Positions 28,748 to 29,035 of a DNA stretch of 57,570 bases are shown piece after piece; the first letter of the stretch is position 1; each line of letters starts with the position of its first letter. The DNA comes from Pedosphaera sp. GTDB taxonomy: Bacteria; Verrucomicrobiota; Verrucomicrobiia; Limisphaerales; DSYF01. The notes under the pieces are model-generated. The model did no database searches. It had not been told where the DNA came from and saw nothing but the letters and a program-made list of their open reading frames with translations. The stretch spans positions 1-57,570 of the forward strand of contig JAFMIZ010000006.1 in the NCBI GenBank assembly GCA_017853715.1. The letters are read 5' to 3'. A program made the translations under genes and the position numbers.

Positions 28748-28810
28748 TTACTTCTTCTTTGCTCCCTTTTTCTTCGCAACTTTCTTCGCAGCTTTCTTCT
28801 TTGCGGGCAT
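28748..28810 (-). CDS. 20-aa lysine-rich peptide MPAKKKAAKKVAKKKGAKKK
   Basis: ATG at 28810, TAA at 28748; GGAGGTGA Shine-Dalgarno on the minus strand at 28826-28819; below ORF-track threshold. Confidence 0.6.
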   Translation of the reverse strand: MPAKKKAAKKVAKKKGAKKK

Positions 28811-29035
28811 GGTCTACTTCACCTCCGATCCTATATGTTTGGGGTTGACGTCCATGAGTTACCGCAACTCACGTGATGTGGCTAGCTGATTTTTCAGAAA
28901 AGTTCAAAGTCTTTTTCGTGTTCATCTCACTGACTCTGCGACCGAACAGTCACACACGACGACGAGAGCAGCGCCTCATCAACACTTCAAACCAATCAAA
29001 TTGACCGCGTGACTTCATCGAATGATGATTCACCC

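Follow-up and report, generated by a model that had tools for sequence, protein, structure and literature searches.

Can twenty codons, eleven of which specify lysine, form a gene of their own, and what would the product of such a gene do? This question is raised by the minus strand of the window, by which we mean the whole 57,570-nucleotide stretch of Pedosphaera DNA analysed here, where a short lysine-rich open reading frame (ORF) preceded by a strong ribosome binding site had been pointed out in a preliminary description made from the letters alone. The features of the locus are collected in Table 1.

Table 1. Features of the lysine-rich locus and its downstream neighbour in the window.
Feature	Positions	Strand	Basis
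Small stem-loop GAGTTGCGGTAACTC in the 5' leader (tentative)	28856-28870	minus	sequence
Extended Shine-Dalgarno GGAGGTGA	28819-28826	minus	direct sequence reading
20-aa ORF MPAKKKAAKKVAKKKGAKKK and stop codon TAA	28810-28748	minus	sequence reading and relatives
Terminator-like hairpin ACCAGGATGG...CCATCCTGGT and interrupted U-tract TTGTCTTTT	28731-28687, U-tract to 28679	minus	folding
PolB-related 3'-5' exonuclease (PF10108), 239 aa	27935-28654	minus	Pfam, E = 6.8e-18

The window ORF and its ribosome site

Direct reading of the sequence from 28826 to 28748 confirmed the ORF as first described. Specifically, the minus-strand frame runs from an ATG at 28810 to the end of its final sense codon at 28751 and closes with TAA at 28750-28748, while an 8-base spacer, AGTAGACC, separates the Shine-Dalgarno sequence from the start codon. 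The deduced peptide carries lysine at 11 of its 20 positions and, as had been noted, its codons are mixed, with AAG and AAA used for lysine and GCA, GCT and GCG for alanine.

Among the ORFs of the window that encode 10-100 aa, only that of MPAKKKAAKKVAKKKGAKKK reaches 40% lysine, and none appeared when the entire window was dinucleotide-shuffled 60 times. The GGRGGTGA motif by itself is not rare, being found at 3 sites against 3.7 expected; what is exceptional is its occurrence together with a lysine-rich ORF. Since 20 codons fall short of the usual gene-caller minimum, it is reasonable to suppose that ORF calling missed this gene, and standard annotation would probably do so as well. Genes this short lie below annotation cut-offs, so that the entire conserved family described below is probably invisible in most verrucomicrobial genomes.

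Relatives of the gene in Verrucomicrobiota

A peptide search of 58 related genomes recovered relatives from the same genus (MAAKKKAAKKKVAKKKGAKKK), the same family (MPAKKKAKKKVAKKKK) and the same order (MPAKKKAAKKAVKKAASKKK), each with a GGRGGTGA site and each placed relative to the downstream exonuclease gene as it is in the window. We also read 90 regions upstream of the exonuclease, a search by position in which the relatives were thus not chosen by their own sequence. A lysine-rich ORF preceded the exonuclease in 46 of these regions, starting 53-142 bases (usually 75-110) from the exonuclease start, with one outlier, G098, at 221 bases; the full GGRGGTGA motif, which was not a search condition, stood before the start codon in all 46 copies.

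A strict nucleotide pattern, GGRGGTGA-N(3-9)-RTG-NCN-RYN-AAR-AAR-AAR, was run together with a reversed-pattern control. Within the order it matched 84 of 312 genomes, nearly always at a single site, and matches also came from further orders of the class (a total of 33 of 287 genomes, counting members of the same order), the control giving no match in either set. In a second class a similar pattern returned mostly longer members and again no reversed match; some of the matches there were unrelated proteins and were set aside. No clear copy was detected in the large families f43, f64 and f72 or in most of f9, nor did a looser pattern, with a background above zero, reveal one. This patchy, pattern-dependent distribution suggests that the lysine-rich gene is not universally needed.

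The compiled carriers amount to 116 genomes, mostly metagenome bins, from 46 families, 66 genera and at least two classes of Verrucomicrobiota. One genome, G005, holds a second copy (L240, on G005:C115) whose peptide is identical to that of L222 (G149:C238) in family f27, with mutS adjoining in both cases; this second copy is probably a bin contamination. Conservation in relatives had been set beforehand as the test that could overturn the proposed gene, and the ORF, the GGRGGTGA site and the lysine pattern proved to be kept across the 116 genomes.

Selection on the encoded peptide

Close relatives were compared in 24 pairs, 13 of them independent. In the independent pairs, 66 of 92 substitutions fell at third codon positions, and 55 of 77 codon changes were synonymous, whereas random single changes in these codons would be synonymous in 27% of cases (p = 1.2e-15). 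The amino-acid changes were mostly exchanges among alanine, valine, threonine and proline, with lysine mostly kept. The ORFs of the window and of its genus relative differ by one in-frame codon and otherwise mainly by synonymous changes. The third-position bias and the synonymous excess together support translation and selection for a lysine-rich peptide, and so bear out the earlier suggestion that selection acts on the peptide rather than on a simple DNA repeat.

Hairpins on both sides of the ORF in some families might be taken to indicate that the locus is an untranslated element, either a structured small RNA or low-complexity DNA arisen by chance. We regard this as very improbable, given the codon statistics (p about 1e-15), the fact that G000 and G001 differ in length in frame, the GGRGGTGA motif always in register and the shuffled windows devoid of comparable ORFs. 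A known small RNA was rejected, as no Rfam match was found at the window locus, and so was a phage origin, as no DNA similarity was found in phage records. In conclusion, amino-acid selection is accompanied by an in-register ribosome site, and the comparison of sequences indicates that MPAKKKAAKKVAKKKGAKKK is encoded by a real protein gene conserved in Verrucomicrobiota.

Hairpin, leader and promoter elements

The hairpin downstream of the stop codon in the window has a folding energy of -36.3 kcal/mol (z = -5.0), and none of 200 shuffled sequences was equally stable. A simple terminator scan of the window did not list the hairpin at 28731-28687, for which its large interior and the interruption of the U-tract are the presumed reasons. 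In the relatives, hairpins located 3' of the stop codon have a median z of -3.3, with 79% below -2 (115 genomes), and 54% are followed by at least six T within 12 bases after the stem. From family to family these hairpins vary in sequence, a pattern that suits terminators rather than a conserved RNA. The Shine-Dalgarno sequence (GATCGGAGG) might pair with the loop of the window hairpin (CCTCCGATC), but this idea was dropped on inspection of the relatives' hairpins: the pairing is disrupted in G001 and missing from G002.

The tentative stem-loop in the 5' leader has a counterpart in G001, CTTGCGGTAAG. Leader hairpins are weak in general (mean z of about -0.7 by family), with an excess in some families, and the 45-nt leader of the window itself has no hairpin excess (z = +0.72). 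Small hairpins lie directly 5' of the ribosome site at L213-L217 (f84), L225-L226 and L277-L278 (f2) and L087-L088 (f8), where they may stabilise or regulate the transcript. Elements resembling TTGCCA-N18-TACAAA/C are found about 75-83 bases upstream of the start codon in several families (f59, f57, f44); the promoter search of the window gave no convincing element of this type, none being clearly recognisable.

Genomic neighbourhood

Of 320 genomes of the order, 292 carry the exonuclease gene. It usually lies downstream of the lysine-rich gene in this order, where many genomes have the latter between a divergent mutS and the exonuclease. Divergent mutS genes were recorded upstream of L222-L224, L227, L228, L236, L237 and L241 in Limisphaerales. 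Elsewhere in the class the neighbours are a flavoprotein, a sigma-54 or a YgbB/IspF gene. In the window, the plus strand between 29009 and 32571 has an ordinary content, namely a divergent type I phosphodiesterase/nucleotide pyrophosphatase gene followed by ruvA and a DUF374 gene.

Between the end of the U-tract and the exonuclease ATG (28679-28654, minus strand) there are 24 bases with no evident ribosome site, which suggests that the window exonuclease may be expressed by read-through of the terminator. This spacing, and the fact that in about half of the genomes read the ORF lies 53-142 bases before the exonuclease with a hairpin between, would suit a leader peptide acting as an attenuator, in which translation of the lysine codons sets the passage of the polymerase through the hairpin into the exonuclease gene. 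Yet the same lysine-rich unit stands beside unrelated genes without the exonuclease, whereas an attenuator should always precede the gene that it regulates; in addition, some members are proteins of more than 100 aa, no link between lysine and the exonuclease is evident, and selection on the peptide extends beyond the lysine codons. A leader peptide was accordingly rejected as the main reading and appears quite improbable. The copies located away from the exonuclease point to a stand-alone gene, and the exonuclease is a neighbour only, outside the unit of the lysine-rich gene. These copies, together with the stability of the window hairpin (z = -5.0), also support the initial view of a self-contained transcription unit with a hairpin of its own.

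Composition and length of the family

The 116 proteins range from 12 to 142 residues, with a median of about 22 and most relatives at 12-35 aa; the shortest is MAAKKKKGKKKK, of 12 residues. Overall they consist of 53% lysine, 32% alanine, 6% proline and 5% valine, while acidic, aromatic and large hydrophobic residues are nearly absent (acidic residues occur in five proteins and large hydrophobic ones in one). The ends are constant, as 102 of the 116 terminate in KKK and the N-terminus is nearly always M-[A/P/T]-x-K-K; translation starts at ATG in 83 cases and at GTG in 33. In family f2, L226 (G178) and L225 (G165) reach 70-134 residues through AAPKRKAVKKKAA-type repeats, and set against the 12-35 residues of most families they form a natural repeat-expansion series. 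A length varying from 12 to 142 aa with constant composition and ends leads us to expect a disordered polycation rather than a folded protein.

Proposed function

Taken together, the data are best accounted for by an autonomous gene for a disordered polycationic microprotein, likely to bind nucleic acid in the manner of a free-standing histone H1 tail, a reading to which we assign a probability of roughly 0.6. The unit would comprise a leader, the extended Shine-Dalgarno sequence, the very short Lys/Ala-rich ORF and the terminator-like hairpin. The ORF would be translated at a high level into an intrinsically disordered microprotein; to judge from its charge, this peptide most likely binds DNA or RNA, as a detached piece of the histone H1 C-terminal tail might, and it could thereby neutralise and compact DNA in the nucleoid or coat RNA. 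Every verrucomicrobium studied by cryosubstitution, strain Ellin514 from the same order among them, has shown a condensed nucleoid (PMC2647929). Against the proposed gene and its function stand the patchy distribution of the copies, the absence of a clearly recognisable promoter in the window and the consideration that a polycation of 12-20 residues may bind DNA weakly at cellular salt.

Small ribosomal proteins are typically tiny, very basic, single-copy, provided with an extended Shine-Dalgarno sequence and strongly selected. The family shares these traits, being usually single copy, and a ribosome- or RNP-associated microprotein comparable to eukaryotic eL41 or bacterial bTHX, binding rRNA and relying on the strong ribosome site for stoichiometric production, is therefore an alternative, albeit an unlikely one. 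A length of 12-142 aa with repeat expansion is unlike that of a protein fitted to a ribosomal pocket, many close relatives have no clear copy, and no ribosomal gene is found among the identified neighbours.

Somewhat less likely still is a polycation binding polyphosphate or other granules and organising storage granules in the nucleoid, as the tails of AlgP or PhaF might. The Lys/Ala/Pro composition is common to these tails and the family, AlgP is located at polyphosphate granules (PMC9239181) and granules occur inside verrucomicrobial nucleoids (PMC2647929), but a granule-binding domain is absent and no polyphosphate gene was identified among the neighbours.

If the nucleic-acid-binding microprotein acts in the nucleoid, it would be among the smallest nucleoid proteins known and would bear on how the condensed nucleoid of these bacteria is kept up, and the family would offer a natural length series, from 12 to 142 residues, for the length requirement of H1-like tails; should it instead belong to the ribosome, it would represent a new ribosomal component specific to the lineage. 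More speculatively, and with clearly less confidence than in the autonomous gene itself, the family may represent a class of stand-alone "naked tail" microproteins that spans the phylum and has not been described before, the smallest having the 12 residues of MAAKKKKGKKKK. Each would be equipped with an extended ribosome site and a terminator of its own and would serve the nucleoid or the ribosome as a gene-encoded counter-ion of peptide nature, much like a polyamine specified by a gene.

Comparison with known systems

The 20-aa protein and its relatives of 69-134 aa gave no match in Pfam, and the 134-aa relative gave none among solved structures. In NCBIfam the window protein was unmatched, and the only hit was that of the 134-aa relative to NF038053, the Burkholderia-type histone H1-like protein, a weak compositional match of 14.2 bits against a cut-off of 80. 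The curated models, including those of chlamydial Hc1/Hc2 and other bacterial H1-like proteins, are thus not matched. The family was not found described in the open-access papers searched.

The resemblance to an H1/Hc1-like tail originally proposed stands as regards composition, which is rich in lysine together with alanine and proline, valine or threonine and almost free of acidic and aromatic residues; it does not extend to membership of a described family. The eukaryotic histone H1 C-terminal domain shares the lysine/alanine/proline composition and the presumed disorder. Histone H1, however, possesses a globular winged-helix domain that the lysine-rich family lacks, the window protein consisting of 20 low-complexity residues, and there is no evidence of common descent. 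At such low complexity, likeness to Hc2, AlgP or H1 is no guide to common descent. The proteins eL41 and bTHX, of about 25 residues and very basic, resemble the family in size and charge, but the family has no fixed length and its sequence pattern differs.

Closer comparisons than histone H1/Hc1 are Hc2 and the tails of AlgP. Chlamydiota belong to the same superphylum as Verrucomicrobiota, and chlamydial Hc2 (HctB) has a similar Lys/Ala-rich disordered composition and a large length variation based on lysine-rich repeat units. These units are lysine-rich pentamers and Hc2 measures 165-237 aa (PMC2848022), against the 20 aa of the window protein and the 12-35 aa of most relatives. The C-terminal tails of AlgP (AlgR3) and PhaF from Pseudomonas, whose repeats resemble the histone H1 tail, are alike in their Lys/Pro/Ala composition, and DNA binding in vitro has been shown for KPAA-repeat peptides derived from AlgP (PMC9239181). 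In AlgP and PhaF the tail is joined to a distinct N-terminal domain within a larger protein, whereas the lysine-rich protein consists of the tail alone.
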